Assembly: GCA_031273445.1 (NCBI GenBank)
Contig: JAISRV010000025.1
Coordinates: 1 to 11,523, forward strand
From: Candidatus Adiutrix sp.
GTDB lineage: Bacteria; Desulfobacterota; Desulfarculia; Adiutricales; Adiutricaceae
Direction of reading: 5' to 3'
DNA: 11,523 bases
In this document: piece after piece, positions 128-11,156 of the stretch
Numbering within the stretch: position 1 is the first letter of the stretch
Layout of the letters: each line of letters opens with the position of its first letter
The notes under the pieces: generated by a model
Told to the model about the DNA's origin: nothing
Databases searched by the model: none
What the model saw: the letters and a program-made list of their open reading frames with translations, nothing else
Program-made: the position numbers and the translations under genes

Positions 128-1798
128 GTGTTTTTTTGCGCCGCCGTCCAACCAGAGAGCAAGCCGCCGGCCCGGGGCCGGCTTCGCCGGGCGTTGCCGG
201 CGGCGGCGGTTCTATTGGTCCTGGCTTTTTATTTCGGGCCGGGCTGGACTTTAAGACATTTTTTGGGCAGCGCCGCCCTGGCCGGCGACAGCGGCCCGGA
301 ATTCACCTTCGAAAAAGCCGGAGGGTCGCTTTTTTCGCGTTCCGCCTATGTGGAAAATCTTTGCCTGGTCAGGCTTAACGGCGCCTCCCTCGCGGCCCCG
401 GTTTGCTTCGATTCCGTCAGAGCCGAAGGTCTCTGTCTCATCAGCCTCTTCAAACTGTGGCGGGAAGACGGCGGCCATAGCCGAACCCGGGCCCTGCCCC
501 TGGCCCGCCGCCTGGCTGTGGCCGGCTTGAAAACGGACGGCGGCCCGATGACCCTGAGCCTTGGCGAAGCGATTGTGGAAGCGCCGGCCCTCCCGCCGTC
601 GTCCGGCGACCCGGGGCTGACGGCGCCCCTTTTGTTCGACAAACTTCTGGCCAGAAATTTTTTTTACGGGGCGGAGGCCGGCCTGGGATCATTTGACCGG
701 CTGGAGGCCCGAGGGCTGACTCTGACCAGGCTGGGGAGCCTTCAGATGCGCGGCTTCAACGCCGACCTCGGCGGCGAGGCCGGCGCGGTCGCGGCGGCCG
801 ACCTGACCATCGGCGGTCTGGACATTAACCTCATGGCCCTGGCCCTGACCAGGGGCGACTTTTTGTCTTTCCTGCGCGGTTGCGAGACCCTTGATCTGGC
901 CCAGGCTGTTTACACGAAAAACGGCCAGGAGGCCCTGACCGTCATGAACGCCCTTTTCGACCGTCAGGAGCCGGCGGACGGGTCCGGCGGCCAAGCGGCG
1001 AAATATATCCGCCGGATCAGCCTGAGGGCTGATCTGGCGGCGCTGGCCCCGGAAAGCGGCGCGCAATACTGGCGGCGGCCGGATTTGGCGGCCATATGGG
1101 CCATCACAAACGGCGCCTTAAATCTTGAGGCCGAGCTGGAACTGACCCGCGACGCCAAGGCCGGCACGTTGGAATTGGACCAATTGCGCCTGAGCTCGCC
1201 CGATTTGGGCCAGGCCGTGCTGCGAGGCCGGGCGGTCGGCGTGTCGTCGACGCGTTCCTGGCAGGCCCTGAACGGGCGGGATCTTTCTCTTCAAAAACTC
1301 ATGCCGGCCTTAAGCGAATTGGCGACCTGGCGCCTGGCCGGCCTGTCTTTGGAGTTCTCGGATCAAGGTCTGGCGGCCGCTCTCTACCGCCATCTGGACC
1401 GTACGGAATTCCGCGACGCCCCCAGCCGTTCCAGCCCGGCCAATATCATGAGCCGCTATATCGCGCCGACGGCGGATAAATTGGAAGAAGAAGGGGGGCT
1501 GGCCAATATTCCAGCTCTGATCAATGAAATAGCCGCCTTTATCAACCAGCCGGACAGTTTCAAAATCACGGCCGCGCCTCTAAAACCACTTTCTTTAAAG
1601 CGCATGCTTTTGATGCGCTTTGTCTATAACGACAAATATGATACAATCGATAAATTGCGTCTGACTCTTCAGGTCAACAACCGGGCGCCGGTGTCAGTGG
1701 CGACGGCCCCGGGCGTGGCTTACGAGAAGCTGCCTTCCTCGCCCCAACCGCTGGACGATTTTTTTAAGGAAGAAGACCTCCCGCCTCCGGCCCATTGA
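128..1798 (+). CDS. Membrane-anchored periplasmic protein, AsmA-like in layout, paralogue of the next gene
   Basis: This is a 556-residue protein with a GTG start. A basic stretch (residues 12-21, several Arg) precedes one hydrophobic segment at about 22-37, giving an N-in membrane anchor with the rest in the periplasm; no lipobox is evident. The body alternates short amphipathic beta-like strands with many GxL and LxL patterns, the repetitive layout of AsmA-like or DUF-type envelope proteins. A C-terminal block from residue 406 (LSLEFSDQGL, then LYRHLDRTE, then an INEIAAFI helix, a KITAAPLKPLS strand and a RLTLQV strand) matches in order the block at residues 503-610 of the downstream gene, so the two are diverged duplicates. 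The tail is acidic and proline-rich. A T7 run (131-137) directly follows the start codon. The exact family and function are not recognised; an envelope role is inference. Confidence 0.75.
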   Translation: MFFCAAVQPESKPPARGRLRRALPAAAVLLVLAFYFGPGWTLRHFLGSAALAGDSGPEFTFEKAGGSLFSRSAYVENLCLVRLNGASLAAPVCFDSVRAEGLCLISLFKLWREDGGHSRTRALPLARRLAVAGLKTDGGPMTLSLGEAIVEAPALPPSSGDPGLTAPLLFDKLLARNFFYGAEAGLGSFDRLEARGLTLTRLGSLQMRGFNADLGGEAGAVAAADLTIGGLDINLMALALTRGDFLSFLRGCETLDLAQAVYTKNGQEALTVMNALFDRQEPADGSGGQAAKYIRRISLRADLAALAPESGAQYWRRPDLAAIWAITNGALNLEAELELTRDAKAGTLELDQLRLSSPDLGQAVLRGRAVGVSSTRSWQALNGRDLSLQKLMPALSELATWRLAGLSLEFSDQGLAAALYRHLDRTEFRDAPSRSSPANIMSRYIAPTADKLEEEGGLANIPALINEIAAFINQPDSFKITAAPLKPLSLKRMLLMRFVYNDKYDTIDKLRLTLQVNNRAPVSVATAPGVAYEKLPSSPQPLDDFFKEEDLPPPAH

Positions 1799-1996
1799 CC
1801 GACGCCCCTGACGGAGGCGAGCATCCGGAACGGAATGCGCCGGCCAGGCCTCTTCTTCTCTGGCTCTGAACATCATCACAGCGGCGAACATCGGGCGCCG
1901 GCCCGTTTCGTTCGCTTCTTAGTCTGAAAAACACCATTATTGTCAGTTGTCCGGCAACCGCCTTTGCGCGGGCCAAGATGGCGCCGGAACGGAAAA

Positions 1997-2000
1997 GAGG
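1997..2000 (+). promoter_or_regulatory. Shine-Dalgarno GAGG fixing the ATG start at 2006
   Basis: AAAAGAGG ends at 2000, 5 bases before ATG 2006. The reading frame is open further upstream to a TTG at 1940, but that extension adds 22 residues (basic, Trp/Pro-containing) with no ribosome site, so ATG 2006 is preferred. Confidence 0.75.
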
Positions 2001-2005
2001 ACACT

Positions 2006-3958
2006 ATGACGACAGAGACGCCCGCCGCCCCGAAAGCGCGGAGCAAAAGCAAAACGCCTTTGATTATTGCGGCGCTGGTGATCGTAGCGGTTCTGGCGAT
2101 TATCGCCGGACGCTCCGCCTCCGGCGACGCCTATGAGACGTTTTCCCTGGCCATGAACAAAATAGCCGGCGAAGGCAAATGGACGGCCGGAAGCCATTCG
2201 GCGAGTTTGTTCAGCGGCCTTCTAACGGTCGACGATCTGAAGGTCGACCTGCCTGAAAACGGCGCTTTGACTATCGCCTCGCTGGCGCTCGGCGGCGCCC
2301 TGGCCAAGGGGGATCTGGCCGACCTCATCGAAGCCGGCGCCTGGCGCGGGGCCAAAGAGCTGAAAATAGCCGACAAACTTAACCTGACGGGCATAAAGAT
2401 CACTAACGCCGAGCTTAAGCTGAATTATGACCTCGCTGAACTCAGCCTTGAGTCCCCGGCTTTGGCCCCGGCTGCCCAGGGCGGGGAACTAAGCGGCCCG
2501 GTCAGCTTTCTAAAGGCTTTCAAGGCCGACAGCCTGGTTTATAAAAATTTCAGCGGCGCCGCGGCTCTGCCTGAAGACAACGGTCAGATGGAGTTCGGCG
2601 CGGGCGAAGTCAGGGCCGTCGGCTTTTCCTTCGCCGGCAAGCCCATAGCCGCCTTTGACAGCCTCGACCCCAGCGGCCTTTTGTCTTCTCTTTCCGCTTT
2701 CGTCGCCAAGGAATATGGCGTTAAAAACATGTTCATAAATTTGTCCGGCGAATTTGAAGGAAACGCTCCGACGAAAATAGCCATCAGCCTCGACGAGGCC
2801 CTGAGCAAGAACGAGGCTCTTTTGCGCAGCTCCGACTCCTCCGTCCTGCGCGGCTTTAAAGTGGAAGTGGAATCCGAGGAGCTCAAGGCCGTCGGCGCCC
2901 TGGCTGAAATGACCACCGCCAAGCTGGACGCCGACGCCTATGTCGACAAGCTGTCCACGGTCATGGCCGCGGCCGTTAAGTCCTCCGACGCCAACCAGAT
3001 GGAATCGGCTTTGTCGGACCTGCAGACCCTGGGCGATCTGTTCGTCTCCCCGATCGGCTTCGACGACATGACCATGAAGGGCCTGGAGATTAATTTATCC
3101 GACCTAATCAGTTTCAAACTGGCCGAAGCTTCGGTCGTCGGCCCCTTCAAAGCCGGGCAGATGCCGGTCAGCCAGAAAAACAGTCTCAAAGGTCTGGAAG
3201 TCAAGCTGTCTGAGAACCCGGACAACCCCAGGGACGAAGGCCGGGCCATCTATGACTTTGGCCGCGATTTCGGCCTGACCGTTTTCAGGGCCAACGGCGA
3301 AAGCGAGGGCAGCTATGACGCCGCCTCAGGTCTTTTCGCCATCCGCGCCAACAACTTTAAAGTTGACGATCTGGCGGAATTCTCCGCCGAGATTCAGTTC
3401 GACGGCCTGACTCCAGGCCGCCTGGAAGTGTTCAACAACACGCCGCTGAACAATCCGTTGGCCTTCATACTGAACCCGGAGGCCATTTTCGGCGAGGCCT
3501 CCTTTAACGGCTTCAGCCTGAAAGTTAAGGATCTGGGCCTCCGGGAACGCCTCTACCAGTACATCAGCCGCACCGACGACTCTTTTGACGGCCCGGAAGA
3601 CGTCAAAAACCAGGCGACCGCCGCCTTGGCGGCCCTGGAAAATCAGTCCGCCGGCAGCCTGAACAACCCGGCCGACCTGCGGCAGCCGTTGACGATATTT
3701 CTGGAAAACGGCGGCGGCCTGGAGGTGAAAATCAAGGCTGATCCGCCGCTGTCGGTTCAGTCGGTCCAAAATATGGGCGCCGATCCCAACCGCATCCTGA
3801 ACTCGCTGGGCATCACTTTCGTCGCCGACGACAAAGCCTTCGCGCCTTTAAACTTTGCCGCCGACCCTCCGGCGGGCGACCTGTCGTCGATGACCGATGA
3901 GGAGATGGAGCAATTGCTGAAAGAGATGGAGGCCCTGGACGAAGAGGAAGCCGAGTGA
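2006..3958 (+). CDS. Membrane-anchored periplasmic protein, paralogue of the preceding gene
   Basis: This is a 650-residue protein from ATG 2006. Residues 1-17 are polar and Lys/Arg-rich and residues 18-34 form a clean transmembrane helix (PLIIAALVIVAVLAIIA), so it is probably an N-in single-pass inner-membrane protein with a large periplasmic part. The order of elements copies the upstream gene: an SLFSG stretch after the anchor (SLFSR upstream), LDDL-type repeats, then a C-terminal block with SLKVKDLGL at about 504, LYQYISRTD, LTIFLENGGGLEVKIKADPPLS at about 563-583 and a final strand. The last 24 residues or so are very acidic (DEEMEQLLKEMEALDEEEAE). A gap of 207 bases without a recognisable gene separates it from the upstream paralogue, and no convincing promoter is seen there. 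It resembles AsmA-like/beta-helical envelope proteins only in layout; substrate and partners are unknown. Confidence 0.78.
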   Translation: MTTETPAAPKARSKSKTPLIIAALVIVAVLAIIAGRSASGDAYETFSLAMNKIAGEGKWTAGSHSASLFSGLLTVDDLKVDLPENGALTIASLALGGALAKGDLADLIEAGAWRGAKELKIADKLNLTGIKITNAELKLNYDLAELSLESPALAPAAQGGELSGPVSFLKAFKADSLVYKNFSGAAALPEDNGQMEFGAGEVRAVGFSFAGKPIAAFDSLDPSGLLSSLSAFVAKEYGVKNMFINLSGEFEGNAPTKIAISLDEALSKNEALLRSSDSSVLRGFKVEVESEELKAVGALAEMTTAKLDADAYVDKLSTVMAAAVKSSDANQMESALSDLQTLGDLFVSPIGFDDMTMKGLEINLSDLISFKLAEASVVGPFKAGQMPVSQKNSLKGLEVKLSENPDNPRDEGRAIYDFGRDFGLTVFRANGESEGSYDAASGLFAIRANNFKVDDLAEFSAEIQFDGLTPGRLEVFNNTPLNNPLAFILNPEAIFGEASFNGFSLKVKDLGLRERLYQYISRTDDSFDGPEDVKNQATAALAALENQSAGSLNNPADLRQPLTIFLENGGGLEVKIKADPPLSVQSVQNMGADPNRILNSLGITFVADDKAFAPLNFAADPPAGDLSSMTDEEMEQLLKEMEALDEEEAE

Positions 3959-4029: not shown

Positions 4030-4097
4030 CGGCCGGAACAACGGCCCGGCCGGCCGGAACGCTTCGGCGCCGGTCGGCCGGGCCGTTGTTCCGGCCG
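4030..4097 (+). repeat. Very long inverted repeat / hairpin before the helicase-like gene
   Basis: Bases 4030-4055 pair with 4072-4097 over 26 positions with no mismatch; one pair (4053 with 4074) is G-T, which is G-U in RNA. The stem continues inward with GG/CC (4056-4057 with 4070-4071), a two-base AA bulge (4058-4059), then CGC/GCG closing a TTCG loop (4063-4066). This gives C(UUCG)G, a known extra-stable RNA tetraloop. The total is about 31 base pairs. No T-run follows: the sequence after it runs straight to ATG 4111 in 13 bases. It could be a rho-independent-like terminator lacking the T-tract, an mRNA-processing or stability element, a dispersed palindrome, or a translational block on the next gene. 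Confidence 0.8.
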
Positions 4098-4110
4098 CCG
4101 GACTTACGCC

Positions 4111-7071
4111 ATGTCTAAAACCCGTGAACAGACGGCCTCCGAGCCCTTTGATCCTGGCCCTGGCCGCCTGACGGCCCGCCCCGGCCCGGATGCCTATCTC
4201 TTCGCCTTTTCCAGCCGCCAGGGCCCCTGGCCCGATATTGGCCGACGCGGCCGTTTCATCTGCGAGGCCGGCGCTCTGGAGGCCCGCGTGACCGACCGGC
4301 GCGGGCCCCGCCTCTCCATCTCTCTAAACTCAGACAAATCCTTGAAGACGGACCTCTCCGGCTTGTTTCTGGCCGACCCCCTCCCGCCGGAAGCGCCGGC
4401 CCCGGGGCCGGACGAATCGTCTCTGCCGGGGGGGACGGCTTTTTTGGACCCGCATGACGGCTGGGTCATGCGCCTGACGGAAGCTTCCGGCCAGAAAGCC
4501 CCGGCCTTTGATCCGCAAATGTGGCCGACCGTCACTCTGGACGAACTGCCCCAACGCCTTTCGCCCGGGGGGTTGACCTTTATCTGGCGGCAGCGCCCGA
4601 CGCCGGAGAACGATCCGACCGGGGTCCTGGTCAGTCATCTTGAACAGGCCGGCGACCGAATGCTGATTCTAGGCGACGCGCCGGCGGACCTGGAAAGCGC
4701 CGCCGGACTCCCCGGAGCCCTCTTCCTGGGGCCGGCGGCGCCGGGGGAGGCCCTCTGTCCGGCCAGCGTTCATACAAAAATATCTGAAGCGGCCGCGGCC
4801 CGTGAAGAGGCCCAGACCGAGCTGCGCAACCAGCTTAACGAACTCAAAAGGGGCGAAGCCGCGGTCAAAGCGGAAGAGGCCCGCTGGGGCGACCTGGCCG
4901 CTCTGGAAAACAGATTTGCGACTTTGGGCCGGGAGGCGGAGGCTCGGCGGCGGCGTTGGGAAAAGACGCGGCTGGAGACGAAACGGGCCGGAGAAGCCTG
5001 GGAAAAGGCCGCGGCAACCCTGGAAGCGGCCGCTGGAGGGCTGCTGGGCTGGGTGCGCCAAAAAAGGCCTGACGAAAAACTCATTCAACGGGTCAAGGTC
5101 AGGCAAGCGGCCCTGGAGGAGGCCGAAGCGGCCATGGCCGAAACGCGTCGGGAGGAAGAAAGTCTTTTGGCCGAGGCCCTGAGTCTGGAAAAACGCCTGT
5201 CCGCCATGCGGCGGGACTCGGAGGCCTGGCCTTCGCCCGTGACGCTGGAAGAGCGCCGGCTGGCCTTCAAAAAACAGGAAGAAAGTCTGGCGGACCGGCT
5301 GGCCTCTGTAACCGCCCGCCCGGCGCCGACCACCCGGAGTCTGGCCGGTTCGGCCAGGAGGCTATTGGCTTTAACCGCGGATTCGGCGCCGGGCGAAGCG
5401 ATGGCCGACGAGACCTTCGATGTCATTGTGGTTCATGTTTCGCGGCCGCCGGACCATCGCGGGCGGCTGGCTCTGGCCGGGCTGGCCGCGCGGGCCCGGC
5501 GGCATCTGGTCATTATGGGCGACTTCTCCTTCTGGCCGATCTGGAACGGGCGGGCCCCGACAATCAAAGCTGAAGGCGGCGGGCCGGCCTGGGCCAGCCT
5601 GATTCTGGCCGAAGCGGCCGATGAAAGGAAACTGTTTCTGGCCCAGGGCGGCCCCTTTCAGGCCGACGCGCGGCAACCAGGCCCGGCCGGACTGCCGCGC
5701 CTGGAGCGTCTGGAGTTGGGCGGCGAGTCCGGCCTGGTTCAGGCGGCGAATCTGAACTATATCGTCGCCCCGGGCGGCCTGACGGCCGCCGCGGTCGACG
5801 GCGCGGGGAATCTCCCGGAATTCGCGCCTAAAAATAAAAAAAACCAAGCCGCCGCCGCCGCGGCCAGCGGACTCGGACTGCGGGCTGACGGCGAAATCGG
5901 CCCGGCCAACCCCGTCAGCGCGCTTATGACGGCCCGGGCGGCCCTTCATTTTGCCGGCCGGGTCGACGCGGACGGCCCGGCGGCCGTCGTGCTGACGGCT
6001 TCTCCGGCTCAGGCGAAACTCATCAGCTTGATGCTGGACGATCTGGGGGCCGTTCCGGGCCGGATCTTCTGCGGCGAGCCGCGGGATTTCGCCCACTGGC
6101 CCCCCGTGCCTCTGGCGCTGATAGACCCGGCCTTCGAAGCGCCCCATCGGAATCACCCCTGGGCCTGGCCCCTCTTTGGCCGCCGGAACCTCATCGGGGC
6201 CTGGCGCTTGGCCGAAGAACGCATCTGGCTGGCCGGGCGGGAGGCCTGGATGCGGGGCTTGCCTGAAAATTCGCCCCTGGCCGCCCTTTGGAAAGCCGCC
6301 CCCAAGGCCGCGGAGGCCTCTCTGTCGCCCCCGGCCGGGCGGCCGCCGGGCCCCAATTTCTGGGAAGCCCTGGACAAAGCCAAAAAAGAGGTCTGGGCCA
6401 TTGCGCCGGCCTTTGAACAATATTGGTGGCGGCCGCTGGAAGAGCATTTTCTGGCCGCGGCCCGACGCCGGGCCGCGGTGACGCTTATCTGCGCCCCGCC
6501 CGGCCCCGGCCTCGACCGCGATTACGCCGCCGCCGCCATCAGAACTCTGAGCGGCCACGGCTGCGCGGTGCATCTGGCCGAGGGACTGCCGGGCTTTATG
6601 GCGGTGATCGACCAAAGCCACTTCACCTGGGGTCATTTTATCGAAGGCGGCCGCGGCGCCTATGTCTGGGGCGGCCTTAAGTCGGCCGTTTTGCCGGGAG
6701 CGGCCGCCGCCCTCAGCGAAATTCTCCAAATACGGCTCATCGGCGAAAAAATGAGCCGCCCCGGCGGCGGGTTGAAGAACTGCCGCCAATGCGGCTGGCC
6801 GCTGGTTTTGATCAATCAGGAACACATACGCGGCTATGGCGACGAACAGCCGCTTAAGCTGGCCTGCCTGGGCCGCTGCGGCTCCAAGAGGCCGCGCCGT
6901 CTGGACGAACGCGAGCCTTTCGCCGCGCCGCCGAAATGCGGCGTCGACCATCGCACTCCCTATCAGCGCGTCAGCCGCGGCAAACATGATTTCTGGGTCT
7001 GCCCCAACCACCCGGCGGGCGACGAGCCGCGCTGCCCCGGCTGCCGGGCGACGCCGGGGGATCCCTCATGA
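4111..7071 (+). CDS. Degenerate SF1 helicase-like / PLD-like / zinc-ribbon fusion protein (pseudo-enzyme)
   Basis: This 986-residue protein follows the layout of bacterial DNA2/UPF1-type SF1 helicases with a C-terminal PLD domain. It has a beta-rich N-terminus (1-150), a first RecA-like lobe starting LTFIW (155-159), a coiled-coil insertion (about 225-400, Glu/Arg/Ala-rich), the lobe continuing at FDVIVV (436-441) and LVIMGD (466-471), a second lobe (about 598-730), a PLD-like domain (about 749-872), and a Cys-rich tail (C891, C894, C919, C923; C943, H947, C964, C975, C978). Walker A is WRQRPTPEN where the family has WGPPGTGKT (Lys to E166). Walker B Asp-Glu is H442-V443. Motif III Gln is F474. 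In the PLD domain HxK is P827-G828-F829 and GSxN is GHFI, with D834 kept. Catalysis is therefore unlikely, yet the frame is intact, suggesting a retained structural or nucleic-acid-binding role. No clear Shine-Dalgarno precedes ATG 4111. Alignment is from memory. Confidence 0.72.
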   Translation: MSKTREQTASEPFDPGPGRLTARPGPDAYLFAFSSRQGPWPDIGRRGRFICEAGALEARVTDRRGPRLSISLNSDKSLKTDLSGLFLADPLPPEAPAPGPDESSLPGGTAFLDPHDGWVMRLTEASGQKAPAFDPQMWPTVTLDELPQRLSPGGLTFIWRQRPTPENDPTGVLVSHLEQAGDRMLILGDAPADLESAAGLPGALFLGPAAPGEALCPASVHTKISEAAAAREEAQTELRNQLNELKRGEAAVKAEEARWGDLAALENRFATLGREAEARRRRWEKTRLETKRAGEAWEKAAATLEAAAGGLLGWVRQKRPDEKLIQRVKVRQAALEEAEAAMAETRREEESLLAEALSLEKRLSAMRRDSEAWPSPVTLEERRLAFKKQEESLADRLASVTARPAPTTRSLAGSARRLLALTADSAPGEAMADETFDVIVVHVSRPPDHRGRLALAGLAARARRHLVIMGDFSFWPIWNGRAPTIKAEGGGPAWASLILAEAADERKLFLAQGGPFQADARQPGPAGLPRLERLELGGESGLVQAANLNYIVAPGGLTAAAVDGAGNLPEFAPKNKKNQAAAAAASGLGLRADGEIGPANPVSALMTARAALHFAGRVDADGPAAVVLTASPAQAKLISLMLDDLGAVPGRIFCGEPRDFAHWPPVPLALIDPAFEAPHRNHPWAWPLFGRRNLIGAWRLAEERIWLAGREAWMRGLPENSPLAALWKAAPKAAEASLSPPAGRPPGPNFWEALDKAKKEVWAIAPAFEQYWWRPLEEHFLAAARRRAAVTLICAPPGPGLDRDYAAAAIRTLSGHGCAVHLAEGLPGFMAVIDQSHFTWGHFIEGGRGAYVWGGLKSAVLPGAAAALSEILQIRLIGEKMSRPGGGLKNCRQCGWPLVLINQEHIRGYGDEQPLKLACLGRCGSKRPRRLDEREPFAAPPKCGVDHRTPYQRVSRGKHDFWVCPNHPAGDEPRCPGCRATPGDPS
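5836..5888 (+). other. Candidate -1 slippery site (A8 run with A AAA AAC) and -1 frame stop
   Basis: An eight-A run (5836-5843) followed by C places the heptamer A AAA AAC at 5838-5844, in the correct phase (zero-frame codons AAA AAC). A ribosome slipping back one base would read about 14 more codons and stop at TGA 5886-5888, giving a protein of about 590 residues that lacks the second RecA lobe, the PLD-like domain and the zinc tail. GC-rich sequence follows, including a short CCGC/GCGG stem at 5858-5870. The codons give Lys/Asn-rich residues (PKNKKNQ) in an otherwise GC-rich gene. Function is unproven. Confidence 0.35.
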
Positions 7072-7913
7072 GCGGGCTGATCGGCAAACTGACCGACTTC
7101 GTCCGCGGTTTCGGCCCGAACGGCCAGGCCTTCTCCTCGTTGAGGGCGGAAGTGATCTTCGAAGGCGATTCGGAGTTTCACCACATTATCATCATGGAAG
7201 AAAACGGGCGCCGCACCATGTTTTTCGGCCCCGCCGGCGAAGAGGCCGAAACTTCCGTCGACCTCCGCAATCCCGATCAGGCCGTGTTTGAATATCCGGG
7301 CATGATGCTGGCGGCTCTGCCGCTGATGCCCCAGGGGCGGCGCATCGCCATGCTGGGCTTGGGCGGCGGCTATCTGCCGCGCCTCTTTCGGCGCTATCTG
7401 CCTCAATACTTTCTGACCGTGGTGGAGGTGGACCTTATGGTCGCCGAACTGGCCGAGACCTATTTCGGTTTCAGCCCCGGCGACAATGTCCGGCTGGTGG
7501 TCTCCGACGGCCGCGACTTTCTGGAGGCGCAGAAGCCCGGCGCCTTCGACCAGATCTGGCTGGACGCCTTTTCCGGCGACTATGTGCCGTCCCGGCTTTC
7601 GGGCCCGGACTTTTTAGAGCTCTGCCTGAGCCGGCTCGCGCCCGGCGGCCTTTTGGCCCAAAACCTTCATCAAAGCCGGCCGGCCGCCTTCAGTAGACAG
7701 CTTGACCATACCAGGGCCGTTTTTGGCGATTTTATGGGCCTCAGCGGCGTCCGCTGCGGCAACGCCATAATTGTGGCCAGGGCGCCGGGCGCGGAGACCG
7801 GGCCGCCCTGGAAGCCGGCCGCCCTCTCCAGGGCCGCCAAAGATTTCGGCCCCCGCATCGGCCCCTACGACCTGGTCAGGGAAATGGGCAAATTTAAAAA
7901 ATTCGGTCCTTAA
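7068..7913 (+). CDS. Spermidine synthase-like (class I methyltransferase fold) protein
   Basis: This 281-residue protein begins at an ATG that overlaps the upstream stop (ATGA, 7068-7071), so it is probably translationally coupled to the helicase-like gene. It carries the Rossmann-type nucleoside-binding loop GLGGGYLPR (97-105), an acidic end of strand 2 (VVEVD, 118-122), SDGRDFL (146-152) and DQIWLDAFSGDYVPSRL (161-177), then APGGLLAQN. These are signatures of the spermidine synthase superfamily. The canonical polyamine signatures are changed: GGGDG is GLGGG, the YQ pair before the core is replaced by HH (39-40 region), and the LDG/YHE motifs are not recognisable. It is therefore better called spermidine synthase-like; the acceptor and whether it uses SAM or decarboxylated SAM are unknown. 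Length is normal for the family. Confidence 0.8.
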   Translation: MSGLIGKLTDFVRGFGPNGQAFSSLRAEVIFEGDSEFHHIIIMEENGRRTMFFGPAGEEAETSVDLRNPDQAVFEYPGMMLAALPLMPQGRRIAMLGLGGGYLPRLFRRYLPQYFLTVVEVDLMVAELAETYFGFSPGDNVRLVVSDGRDFLEAQKPGAFDQIWLDAFSGDYVPSRLSGPDFLELCLSRLAPGGLLAQNLHQSRPAAFSRQLDHTRAVFGDFMGLSGVRCGNAIIVARAPGAETGPPWKPAALSRAAKDFGPRIGPYDLVREMGKFKKFGP

Positions 7914-7928: not shown

Positions 7929-9395
7929 ATGCGCATGCAATTCAAAGCCGAACTGGCGGCGCCGGCGGCCAACACCGCGTTTTTTCTCTTTGAGGACGAC
8001 GAAAGCCTGACGGCCAGGCCGGAACTGGCGGCCGTCCAGGCGATTTTGGCGCCGTTGATGGAAAACGGGGAATTCAAAGCCTCGCCCCTGGCGGAACTGC
8101 CGCTGAAGACCGCCGACGGCTGGCTGATTCTGGTCGGCTTGGGGCGGCGGGACAAGTTGACCCCGGCCCGCCTCATAGAGGCCGCGGCCAAGGCCGTGGG
8201 CCGGGCCGTGGCCCTGAACAGCCGCCGCCTGGACCTGGCTCTGCCTCCGGCCGGGGAGATCGCGCCGGGCCGGGTTTTGACCCTGACCGCCCTGGGCGCT
8301 CTTTTGGCTCTTTACAGACAAACCGAGTTCAAAAGCGAGCCCGCCCCGGCGCCGGCCTTAACGAACCTTATTTTTCTGGGCTTCGGGAGCGTCAAGAATG
8401 CGGCCAAAATTTTACGCGAGGCTGAAATAACCGCGGAAGCCGTCGCGCTGGCTAGGCGTCTGGGCGATCGGCCCGCCAATGTCCTTTACCCGGAAACATT
8501 CGCCAAGGAGGCGGCTGCGCTGGCCAAACGCCATTCGCTGACGGTCGAAATTCTGGACGAAAAAGCCCTGACCAAGGCCAGGCTGAACCTTATCGCCGCC
8601 GTGGGGCGGGGCAGCGCCCACGGGCCCCGGCTGGTCACGCTTAAATACCAGGGGGCCGAGGCCGGCCTTAAGCCCGTGGCCCTGGTCGGAAAGGGCGTCA
8701 CTTTCGATTCCGGAGGCCTGTCGCTCAAGCCGGCCGGCTCCATGGAAGGCATGAAAACCGATATGTCCGGCGCGGCCATCGTCCTGGCCGTCACCGGCGC
8801 CGCCGCGGCCATGAAACTGCCGGTCAACCTGACCGCCGTCATGCCCCTGGCGGAAAACATGCCCGACGGGGCCGCCGTGCGCGTGGGCGACGTCATCGCC
8901 GGCCGCTCCGGCCGGACGGTGGAAATCACCAACACCGACGCCGAAGGCCGTCTTATTTTAGCCGACGCCCTGACCTGGGCCGGGGAGATGAAGCCGGCGG
9001 CCATCATTGACGTGGCCACCCTGACCGGGGCCTGCGCCGTGGCTCTGGGCGATTTGTGCGCCGGCCTTTTCAGCAACGATTCCGCTTTGCGCAGAGGGCT
9101 GATGGACGCGGCGGAGGCCATGGGGGAACACTTCTGGCCGCTGCCGCTTCTGGACGAATATGAAGACAACCTCAAAAGCGAAACGGCCGACCTGATCAAC
9201 GCCCCGACCGTGCCCCGCGGCGGCGCCGTCAACGCCGCGCTCTTCCTGCGCCGTTTCGTGCCCGCGGAAATCCCCTGGGCCCACCTGGACATCGCCGGGC
9301 CCGCCCGGGCCGGCAGCCCGCGGCCAGGCACGCCTGTCGGCGCCGTCGGCGTGGCCGTGCGCTCCCTTGTGGCCTACCTGAAGTCCCGCCCCTGA
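7929..9395 (+). CDS. pepA: Leucyl aminopeptidase (cytosol aminopeptidase, M17 family)
   Basis: This 488-residue protein, normal length for M17, would remove N-terminal residues from peptides in the cytoplasm as a two-metal hexameric enzyme. The N-terminal regulatory domain (about 1-160) is variable. The catalytic domain has all signatures: RPANVLYPE (181-189), GKGVTFDSGG (254-263, metal ligands K255 and D260), SLK (K267, catalytic), KTDMSG (D278), NTDAEGRL (335-342, D337, E339, R341) and WAHLDIAG near the C-terminus. By family knowledge these cover both zinc/manganese sites, so it should be active. A second ATG at 7935 is possible; 7929 fits the strong ribosome site. It lies 15 bases after the spermidine synthase-like gene and 15 before the radical SAM gene. 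In some bacteria M17 proteins also bind DNA; nothing here tests that. Confidence 0.97.
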   Translation: MRMQFKAELAAPAANTAFFLFEDDESLTARPELAAVQAILAPLMENGEFKASPLAELPLKTADGWLILVGLGRRDKLTPARLIEAAAKAVGRAVALNSRRLDLALPPAGEIAPGRVLTLTALGALLALYRQTEFKSEPAPAPALTNLIFLGFGSVKNAAKILREAEITAEAVALARRLGDRPANVLYPETFAKEAAALAKRHSLTVEILDEKALTKARLNLIAAVGRGSAHGPRLVTLKYQGAEAGLKPVALVGKGVTFDSGGLSLKPAGSMEGMKTDMSGAAIVLAVTGAAAAMKLPVNLTAVMPLAENMPDGAAVRVGDVIAGRSGRTVEITNTDAEGRLILADALTWAGEMKPAAIIDVATLTGACAVALGDLCAGLFSNDSALRRGLMDAAEAMGEHFWPLPLLDEYEDNLKSETADLINAPTVPRGGAVNAALFLRRFVPAEIPWAHLDIAGPARAGSPRPGTPVGAVGVAVRSLVAYLKSRP

Positions 9396-9410: not shown

Positions 9411-11156
9411 ATGTCTGAAACAAAAGTGATCGCGGCCATTGTCGCCCGCTCCAGTTCCCCAGCCCGCCCGGCCCGTCTTTTGACCGACCGGGCGCTGACG
9501 ACGGCGCATGGCCAATCGTCTTTGGCCCACATCGTGCGACGGCTGTCGCTGTGCGCCGGGCTGAACGCGCTGACCCTGGCCGCCGGCGACCCCGAGGCCG
9601 ACGCCGGCATCATTCTGGCGGCCGCGCAACTGGGCCTGCCGGCCGTGGCCGGGCATCCCCGCGATATGCCGCGCCGCCTCCTTATGGCCGCCGAGAGCTT
9701 TAACGCGGCTCACGTCGTCCGCGTCAACGGCAACTTCCCCTTGATAGACCCCTGGGCGCTGGACGACCTCATCAGCCGCCACTTGCAAAAGAATTCGGAT
9801 TACAGCTCCAACAGCCACTACCGGGGCGTAGTCTACGGGCTGGGGGCCGAGATATTCAAGGCGGCCGCGCTGCGGAAGCTGATCGCCGGCGAATCTCCCG
9901 GCGGCGCCGGCCTTGATGCGCGCGTCTTCATGCGTCGCCCCGGGGATTTCAGCGTCAATCTGGAGCCGGCCGACAAAACCGCCCCTGACCTGCGGGTCAG
10001 CCTTGATTTCGCGGCCGACGTCCCCGTTGTGGAGGCTATTTTCGAGCGCCTGGGAGAGCCGGACAACGCGGCGGTGATCGATTTTTTCGCCGACCGCCCC
10101 GAATTCGCCGCCTCCGCCGCGGGGGCGGCCGAAGTGGGGCTGCAAAAAGTCCTGCTCTTTCCCGAAAAGCTGGCCGCGCTGAAAAACAACGGCCCCGGAA
10201 GCCGCGATCTGAGTTACCCGATTTCGGTCGAACTGTCGTTGACCAATCGTTGCAACCAGAACTGCCGGTGGTGTTCCGACAAAAAACTGCGCGCCCGGAC
10301 GCCCGATCTCGTCAATCCGGATATGCTCGAACTTCTGTTCGCCGATCTGGCCCGGGGCGGCGCCCGCGGGGTGACCATAGAAGGCGGAGGCGAACCGACT
10401 CTGGCCCCTTTTTTTGAAGAGGCCGTGCGTTCAGCCGCGGCGCGCGGCCTGGCCGTGGGCCTGATCACCAACGGGCTGGACCTTTTTCCGCCGGAGCGCG
10501 ACTCCGACATATACCGGCGGTTCGAATGGATCAGAGTCAGCCTCGACGCGGCCGAACGCGGGCAGTATCTGAGACTTAAGGGCGTGGACGGTTTTGAAGC
10601 GGCCATGGCCGCCATAGGCCGCCTGGTTGAGGCCGCGGCCCCGGCGGCCATCGGCGTAGGCTATGTGCTGACCTCAGAAAACGACGAGCCGAACCTTCTC
10701 CAGCACCTGATTTCAACTCTGCGCGCCATGGGCGTGAATTATATCCAGATTCGCCCGGTGGTCGACCACCCGGAGATGGTCAGTTCTTTGTCGGCCGGTT
10801 TTCTCAAAAAATTCGAAACCCCCGATTTCAGCGTCAACCTGGCCGCCCTCACTGAAAACCGGGCCAGCGGCAACCTGGGCCTGCCCTGTCTGGCCCACAG
10901 CCTCTCCACGGTCATCAGCGCCGACGGGGCGGTCTGGCTTTGCGGCCGTTTGAACGCCGCCGAAGAATGCCGCCCCCTTGGGCGCCTGACCGAAGCCGCC
11001 TTCGCGGAAATCTGGCGCGGCCCGGAACGGGCCGCCCAAACGGCCGAAGCCGCCGACCCTGACTTCTGCAAAAGCCATTGTCCCCAATGCCGCATGACTA
11101 AATACAATCAACTGCTGGCCGATATTGATCGTTTGAAAACCAAAAATTTCATCTGA
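9411..11156 (+). CDS. Fusion: cytidylyltransferase-like domain + radical SAM/SPASM domain
   Basis: This is a 581-residue protein with two parts. Residues about 5-215 resemble SpsF/KdsB-type cytidylyltransferases (sugar-acid activation): an opening strand VIAAIVAR, a VVRVNGNFPLIDP stretch (102-114), DYSSN (130-134) and RVSLDF with D199. The usual AR-x-GS-x-RLPGK signature is degraded (ARSSSPARPAR) and the metal-binding Asp of GDxP is N108. Residues about 270-581 form a radical SAM domain with CxxxCxxC (C281, C285, C288) for the 4Fe-4S cluster, GGGEPT (325-330) for SAM binding, and a SPASM-type tail: C493-x12-G506-x4-C511, then C553, C557 and C560. The radical SAM half looks complete, the nucleotidyltransferase half doubtful. 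By analogy it may modify a sugar, a nucleotide-sugar or a peptide linked to cell-surface glycans; this is inference. No clear Shine-Dalgarno precedes ATG 9411, 15 bases after pepA. Confidence 0.82.
   Translation: MSETKVIAAIVARSSSPARPARLLTDRALTTAHGQSSLAHIVRRLSLCAGLNALTLAAGDPEADAGIILAAAQLGLPAVAGHPRDMPRRLLMAAESFNAAHVVRVNGNFPLIDPWALDDLISRHLQKNSDYSSNSHYRGVVYGLGAEIFKAAALRKLIAGESPGGAGLDARVFMRRPGDFSVNLEPADKTAPDLRVSLDFAADVPVVEAIFERLGEPDNAAVIDFFADRPEFAASAAGAAEVGLQKVLLFPEKLAALKNNGPGSRDLSYPISVELSLTNRCNQNCRWCSDKKLRARTPDLVNPDMLELLFADLARGGARGVTIEGGGEPTLAPFFEEAVRSAAARGLAVGLITNGLDLFPPERDSDIYRRFEWIRVSLDAAERGQYLRLKGVDGFEAAMAAIGRLVEAAAPAAIGVGYVLTSENDEPNLLQHLISTLRAMGVNYIQIRPVVDHPEMVSSLSAGFLKKFETPDFSVNLAALTENRASGNLGLPCLAHSLSTVISADGAVWLCGRLNAAEECRPLGRLTEAAFAEIWRGPERAAQTAEAADPDFCKSHCPQCRMTKYNQLLADIDRLKTKNFI

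Follow-up and report, generated by a model that had tools for sequence, protein, structure and literature searches.

A UPF1-like helicase-PLD fusion protein with both predicted active sites lost, retained in the family Adiutricaceae

Introduction

Few helicases remain under selection after loss of the whole ATPase, and RecC, AddB and PriA, the bacterial examples considered here, belong to repair or replication machines. In the accessible parts of the sources, RecC and AddB are described as recognising Chi through a dead superfamily 1 (SF1) helicase core (PMC1185551, PMC4824097), and PriA of D. radiodurans as retaining DNA binding without ATPase activity (PMC4504706). Here we describe a pseudo-helicase gene at positions 4111-7071 of an 11,523-nucleotide stretch of Candidatus Adiutrix sp. 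DNA (assembly GCA_031273445.1, contig JAISRV010000025.1), the whole of which is referred to as the window. The organism belongs to the Adiutricaceae, described in the part of the source available as a termite-gut family of Desulfobacterota (PMC9137090). The encoded protein is almost certainly, from its sequence and structure model, an SF1 helicase-PLD nuclease fusion that has lost both activities. It is of the UPF1 type, its nuclease is lost as well, and the gene is present in every searched genome of one family, once in decayed form.

Loss of Catalytic Residues

The open reading frame (ORF) is uninterrupted through 986 codons, as stated in an earlier reading of the letters alone (the original prediction), and its product begins with a UPF1-like SF1 helicase fold, into which a coiled coil is inserted; a PLD-nuclease fold follows, and a C-terminal module rich in cysteine completes the protein. 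The features, all on the + strand, are as follows:

4111..7071, +, predicted pseudo-helicase / pseudo-PLD protein, 986 amino acids, open frame, no Pfam family
4144..4560, +, N-terminal beta-rich region at the place of the UPF1-type 1B/OB part (AlphaFold model strands between residues 18 and 88)
4585..4611, +, former Walker A, W159 kept, GPPGTGKT changed to RQRPTPEN
4768..5325, +, coiled-coil insert splitting lobe 1A into two halves (model helices 220-308, 322-370, 376-402)
5416..5445, +, former motif II, FDVIVV kept, DEAS changed to HVSR
5518..5541, +, former motif III, GDFSFWPI, D471 invariant, Gln lost
5878..6330, +, lobe 2A, with motif IV remnant Q634, motif V changed to GEPxDF..W and motif VI to GR..L..A..LA
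6340..6780, +, PLD-nuclease fold without HxK, D834 kept
6781..7068, +, C-terminal cysteine-rich module ending in PGD (C891, C894, C919, C923; C943, C964, C975)

Conservation was read from an alignment of 50 homologues of the window protein (A1). The Walker A site had been read as WRQRPTPEN with its lysine replaced by E166; E166 does stand at the lysine place, and the full GxxxxGK[ST] motif occurs there in none of the 50 homologues. Motif II reads HVSR (residues 442-445) for DEAS and motif III GDFSFWPI (470-477) for GDxxQLPP, both as first proposed, with Asp at 442, Glu at 443 and Gln at 474 each found in 0/50. The usual residues of motifs V and VI, likewise reported as lost, are nearly absent: motif V has Thr in no homologue, His in four and Gln in one, its Phe (F660) being kept in 43/50, and the motif VI arginine place, residue 700 (Leu in the window), holds Leu in 47 homologues and Arg (L048), Lys (L039) and Met in one each. 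Among residues kept across homologues are W159 (46/50), D471 (50/50) and Q634 (46/50). The claim that every ATPase motif had been replaced is therefore right as to the loss and slightly too strong in its "every", given D471, Q634 and F660. The further suggestion that many changes are one-base steps from the parent codons proved uninformative: such steps make up 11 of the window protein's 14 changed positions, 410 of 648 (63%) in other members and 51% for random residues.

A GKS that lacks the leading Gly stands at the old P-loop place in a single member, P0013, and motif VI of L048 reads LARAKK; these residues and the lysine of L039 may be chance or relics. No two of the P0013 GKS, the L048 Arg and the motif II residues occur in one member among the 50.

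The nuclease site is affected as well, a loss that the original prediction had not mentioned. The PLD His and Lys are found in 0 of the 48 rows with letters and no HxK lies within residues 815-837 in any of the 50 rows; of the active-nuclease pattern HxK....D the aspartate, D834, is kept (47/47). Because the catalytic residues are gone, ATP-driven helicase or PLD nuclease activity in the window protein is judged very unlikely.

The replacements themselves might constitute a new catalytic site, with GDFTxW, GEPxDFxxWP and GR..L..AL.LA forming an unrelated activity in the old fold. They are well conserved (D471 and G655 in 50, E656 in 41 and D659 in 42 of 50), but D471 and F660 go back to the ancestral motifs III and V, respectively, and family models match the protein on the coil only, which leaves this explanation improbable.

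Fold and Homology

The AlphaFold model of the window protein is confident, and its Foldseek and VIA-align matches include SETX, IGHMBP2, UPF1 and Sen1; the absence of a family from the VIA-align lists was not taken as evidence. Both the model and hhalign give the two RecA-like lobes and 1B-type N-terminal part of a UPF1-like SF1 fold, and the PLD superfamily fold is also present, the model matching Nuc.

For comparison, 38 intact SF1 helicase-PLD-zinc proteins were aligned (A2; Pfam AAA_11, AAA_12, PLDc_2 and Zn_ribbon_Top1). Profile-profile alignment of A1 with A2 is collinear over 830 columns (probability 99.8, E 1.2e-28); a local rerun gave 850 columns and E 2.2e-27, collinear from residue 12 of the window protein onwards. 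It pairs TFIWRQRPTPEN with TFVWGPPGTGKT, FDVIVVHVSR with FDVVVVDEAS, and GDFSFWPI with GDFRQLPP. The original placement of the motifs (LTFIW at 155-159, FDVIVV at 436-441) comes out at the same places by sequence and by this alignment, and two of the checks proposed with it, a profile search and a structure prediction, agree with it, through the end-to-end match to intact proteins and the structural matches above, respectively.

Because coils align by chance, the proteins were cut into parts for an alignment control, with E given forward and then with A2 reversed: 3.1e-14 and 0.59 for the region after the coil, 1.4e-14 and 0.31 for PLD plus zinc, 4.6e-5 and 0.096 for lobe 2A alone, 2.7e-5 and 0.15 for the region before the coil, 5.6e-8 and 0.0019 for the coil alone, and 2.2e-27 and 1.6e-6 for the whole length, where the reversed value stems from the coil. 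The family profile scores the 120 listed A2-type proteins at 58-117 bits, against at most 16.5 bits for 260 reversed controls; the next frames of unrelated source reach 26.9 (MkoC of G003) and 22.1 bits.

Some results of these comparisons weigh against the homology. In the family-profile test, separate PLD/zinc stretches were seen in just 7 of the 120 listed A2 proteins. In the reverse test the A2 profile scores the window protein at 12.8 bits, through the coil only, and the 50 members from 45.9 down to -1.0 bits, with reversed controls up to 7.9. Because that reverse test is weak, the homology claim is founded on profile-profile comparison, structure and intact relatives, not on single-sequence scores. 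The low A2 score would suit an unrelated coiled-coil protein misread by eye, with no helicase at all, as would the failure of Pfam, NCBIfam and PADLOC scans to recognise a helicase family in the 986-residue protein and of a single-sequence PDB search to give a significant match (best E 1.4). This explanation is nonetheless extremely improbable, since the structure model agrees with the coil-free profile alignments and the intact relatives L148 and L149, described below, match end to end. SMC and JetC model matches of the protein fall on the coiled coil, and a PHROGs scan gave no match for it or for neighbours A and B.

Retention and Selection

All 37 genomes searched within the window's family gave a homologue (E ≤ 0.001), counting its own genome and the decayed copy of G001; they were searched together with 23 others of the class, 60 genomes in all. 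At the same threshold, 0 of 23 and 0 of 26 other genomes of the class gave a hit; G047, in the class, has an A2-type protein matched at 99.9 bits in a direct profile test. Hits carried the names "Candidatus Adiutrix sp." and "Deltaproteobacteria bacterium". The original prediction had named local decay, with intact motifs in close relatives, as the reading that would overturn it; none of the 50 aligned homologues has a full Walker A or the motif II Asp or Glu.

The ratio of nonsynonymous to synonymous substitution (dN/dS), which had been proposed as a check across orthologues, was taken by a counting method, with synonymous sites partly saturated, for the 12 closest pairs that had DNA; it is 0.15-0.52, and every one of the 12 lies well below 1. 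Together with the family-wide retention, these values support the original description of a retained pseudo-enzyme, not a decaying pseudogene, and the dead protein has very probably been kept under purifying selection, as judged from sequence comparison. A pseudogene in progress, merely still open, could be suspected from the decayed pieces in the congener G001, the long stem of the clade and the unrelated C-terminal letters that end P0017 and P0015; with a homologue in all 37 family genomes and low dN/dS in all 12 pairs, it is very improbable.

Seven homologues from several genera (L037, L042, L050, L054, L055, L060 and L061) are longer, at ~1270 to 1650 amino acids, and their longest segments belong to the N-terminal part and to the second half of 1A.

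Intact Relatives and Phylogeny

A phylum-wide search of 297 genomes, with two candidates scored per genome, found an intact relative in two genomes outside the family, G238 (L148) and G135 (L149); the total of 6/297 is a lower bound because the search missed the known A2-type protein of G047. L148 and L149 score 357 and 313 bits against the pseudo-family profile, nearly all of which is covered, and both carry GPPGTGKT, [VI]DEIS, GD[FW]LQLPP, TVHTFQG, NVAVTRAK and the PLD pattern HGK....D. No intact intermediate was found among 7,993 candidates scored after ~5.8 billion proteins were searched with the family alignment.

Matches to L148 at 1e-30 occurred in 8 of 395 phylum genomes: G238 (100% identity), G135 (61%), G007 with a member of the pseudo family, and five with A2-like or partial proteins at 29-34% identity. 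Within the order of G238, an intact relative was found in 1 of 60 genomes, G238 itself, and a second genome of its genus lacks it. Such a patchy distribution would fit an accessory gene. In G047, the gene of A2 type (L093:4402-7518) lies ~2 kb from genes resembling those for the small and large subunits of phage terminase (9577-11369; names by reading).

A tree was built from 30 rows, namely 16 of the 50 pseudo-family members, 10 of the 38 A2 proteins, L148, L149, L152 and MkoC, the last being a long branch, and was rooted at the midpoint for drawing. All pseudo-family rows fall into a single clade (100/100), whose stem measures 1.57 changes per column, and L148 and L149 attach between this clade and the A2 group with MkoC. 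The simplest reading is that both active sites would have been lost in one ancient event, before the family radiated.

C-Terminal Module

The two cysteine pairs of a C4 zinc module are represented in the window by C891, C894, C919 and C923, as read from the sequence. C891 and C894 are present in 47/47 rows with letters; C943, C964 and C975 are missing or cut off in P0015-P0019 and L058, and partly in L062. This module is the best-preserved domain between the window and L148, with 38/95 identical residues and 16-30% identity elsewhere (first part of 1A 12/40, PLD 34/135, lobe 2A 31/151, second part of 1A 17/98, coil 31/192 and N-terminal part 22/140). In three pairs, its dN/dS is 0.08, 0.17 and 0.22, the lowest of any domain in two of the three; the N-terminal part gives 0.23, 0.49 and 0.30, the N-terminal part and both parts of 1A together range over 0.20-0.49, and the PLD part is mixed (0.01, 0.21 and 0.47). 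Because of this identity gradient and the domain dN/dS, the C-terminal module appears to be the part whose old role was kept. The zinc ribbon of the A2 proteins bears the Pfam name Topoisomerase DNA binding C4 zinc finger, and nucleic-acid binding is accordingly a putative role of the module in the window protein; zinc binding is putative as well.

Neighbouring Genes

The remaining genes of the window are:

128..1798, +, neighbour A, related to B, no Pfam family
1940..3958, +, neighbour B, beta-rich, with an N-terminal hydrophobic helix by our reading (AlphaFold pLDDT 89.3), no Pfam family
7068..7913, +, methyltransferase / spermidine-synthase-like gene (PF01564 below cut-off), its start overlapping the pseudo-helicase stop by 4 bases
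7929-9395, +, M17 aminopeptidase gene
9411-11156, +, radical-SAM gene

Neighbour A is tied to B by the A-type protein of G001, which matches the B profile at E 1.6e-18. Of 32 loci of relatives examined by tblastn, 24 contain a homologue of neighbour B and 19 a homologue of the methyltransferase-like gene. B-type proteins have multiplied around the pseudo-helicase, a single-linkage cluster of 53 being spread over 27 of the 32 loci (L031-L062), and are modelled as open beta structures with a membrane anchor. In the 9411-11156 protein, radical SAM and SPASM parts are joined to an N-terminal part that resembles a nucleotidyltransferase (NTP_transf_3 and CTP_transf_3, each at E 0.003 and below cut-off).

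The window protein might be an envelope-linked regulator or assembly factor for the A- and B-type proteins, acting for example through mRNA binding. A- or B-type genes lie on the same strand in 27/32 loci, the downstream gene overlaps by 4 bases, and the top Foldseek match of the B model is the lipoprotein JlpA (E 3.0e-5). The JlpA match is weak, however (TM score 0.24/0.39), with ApoB and porins ranked higher by VIA-align, and the linkage may stem from a shared promoter only. In addition, G001 keeps its A gene open and its B gene open over most of its length, with the end matching in another frame, despite a decayed pseudo-helicase; its methyltransferase-like gene is in broken pieces. We regard this role as unlikely.

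A RecC-like subunit, in which the dead partner would scan or steer nucleic acid for an active motor or nuclease encoded elsewhere, is just as unlikely. RecC and AddB offer precedents as dead SF1 cores within active complexes, the RecC nuclease domain being dead too, according to the text available in PMC1185551 and PMC4824097, and the long coiled coil would fit complex formation. A Pfam scan of the neighbours recognised neither a motor nor a nuclease gene, however, and an AAA_12 helicase was not found in the window's own genome, which is 71.67% complete.

Proposed Role

The loss shared across the family suggests a new, non-enzymatic job. In the overall explanation that we favour and hold to be somewhat probable, loss of both active sites was followed by purifying selection on an ATP-independent scaffold. 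Sequence and predicted structure show that a fusion of a UPF1-like SF1 helicase, a PLD nuclease and a zinc-type module lost both active sites, most simply once. The dead protein would need no ATP and would serve as a clamp or scaffold that binds nucleic acid. Its C-terminal module may grip RNA or DNA, aided by the remains of lobe 2A and the PLD fold, and the coiled coil and rewired lobe 1A may carry partner contacts. A partner or target may sit among the adjoining genes, because the gene lies among conserved envelope-type genes. Taken alone, the RecC-like role of a dead helicase-nuclease kept as a nucleic-acid-binding scaffold, drawn by analogy, is tentative and slightly short of an even chance; it was lowered from even because two members lack the fourth cysteine. 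It is possible, though doubtful, that the family ancestor captured a UPF1-like helicase-PLD nuclease of a mobile, defence-type kind, which lost both catalytic centres and was rebuilt as a structural protein that binds nucleic acid independently of ATP and is linked to an envelope gene cluster specific to the family.

A number of observations fit the favoured explanation poorly. The fourth cysteine, C923, is missing in P0002 and L031, both near the window's genus. Motif Ia has gone, as has most of motif V, Ser replaces the Tyr of motif IV in 48/50 homologues, and the median isoelectric point is 7.3 in the pseudo family and 8.8 in the intact type. The PLD part is without special constraint in one of three pairs (0.47). 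The 12 dN/dS pairs overlap in members and all come from other genera of the family than the window's, and G001, of the window's genus, holds only pseudo-helicase pieces with stops (L145, G001:C68, ~4030-5380), which shows that loss of the gene is possible. Against the A2 profile L148 and L149 reach 441 and 407 bits, more than against the pseudo profile, and the split joining them to the pseudo clade is supported at 87/80 only. The Pfam scan of neighbours also recognised no helicase gene.

Comparison with Known Systems

A literature search did not find a paper on this pseudo-helicase family, most subscription journals being outside its coverage. The nearest relatives are the A2 proteins together with L148 and L149, which share with the window protein the domain order, the place of the coiled coil, the PLD fold and the first cysteine pairs; L148 and L149 also share the C-terminal module ending in PGD. 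The 38 A2 rows, L148 and L149 keep Walker A, DE(A/I)S, motifs V and VI and the PLD HxK, whereas the window's family has lost all of these.

MkoC of Mokosh type II likewise has a UPF1-like SF1 helicase followed by PLD; the window protein differs in its zinc-type module and is not a member. Among four members scanned, the window protein, L031 and P0006 did not match the MkoC model over helicase and PLD, and L038 matched at E 0.006 on the coil only. An intact MkoC match is present in G003, of the window's genus (L146:3359-6919, E 4.8e-279). CnuH of type II/III CoCoNuT systems, as far as it is described in the available part of PMC11090510, resembles the window protein in its UPF1-like SF1 fold and in a large helical, partly coiled-coil insertion after Walker A, but is described with ATP-driven helicase activity and McrBC-type operons; neither McrB nor McrC was recognised among the scanned neighbours of the pseudo-helicase.

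PriA of D. radiodurans (PMC4504706) and Utp25 (PMC9539457), as presented in the accessible parts of these sources, are also helicase or helicase-like proteins without activity that are kept for another job, but belong to other helicase groups with other partners. The likeness to RecC and AddB is that of an SF1 core with most or all motifs lost and kept for DNA recognition, in RecC together with a dead nuclease domain (both from the accessible parts of PMC1185551 and PMC4824097). Those proteins differ in having a PD-(D/E)xK nuclease and a known repair complex, whereas the window protein has a PLD fold and a zinc-type module, with a candidate partner not recognised nearby. Since other families of the phylum have an intact relative with the same C-terminal module, the change from enzyme to non-enzyme can be followed at the level of single residues. 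Should the module bind nucleic acid, the family would show what is worth keeping of such a machine after the motor is lost, and if the captured-and-rebuilt history is true, the window protein would have taken on a new cellular role as a bacterial counterpart of RecC of the UPF1 type.

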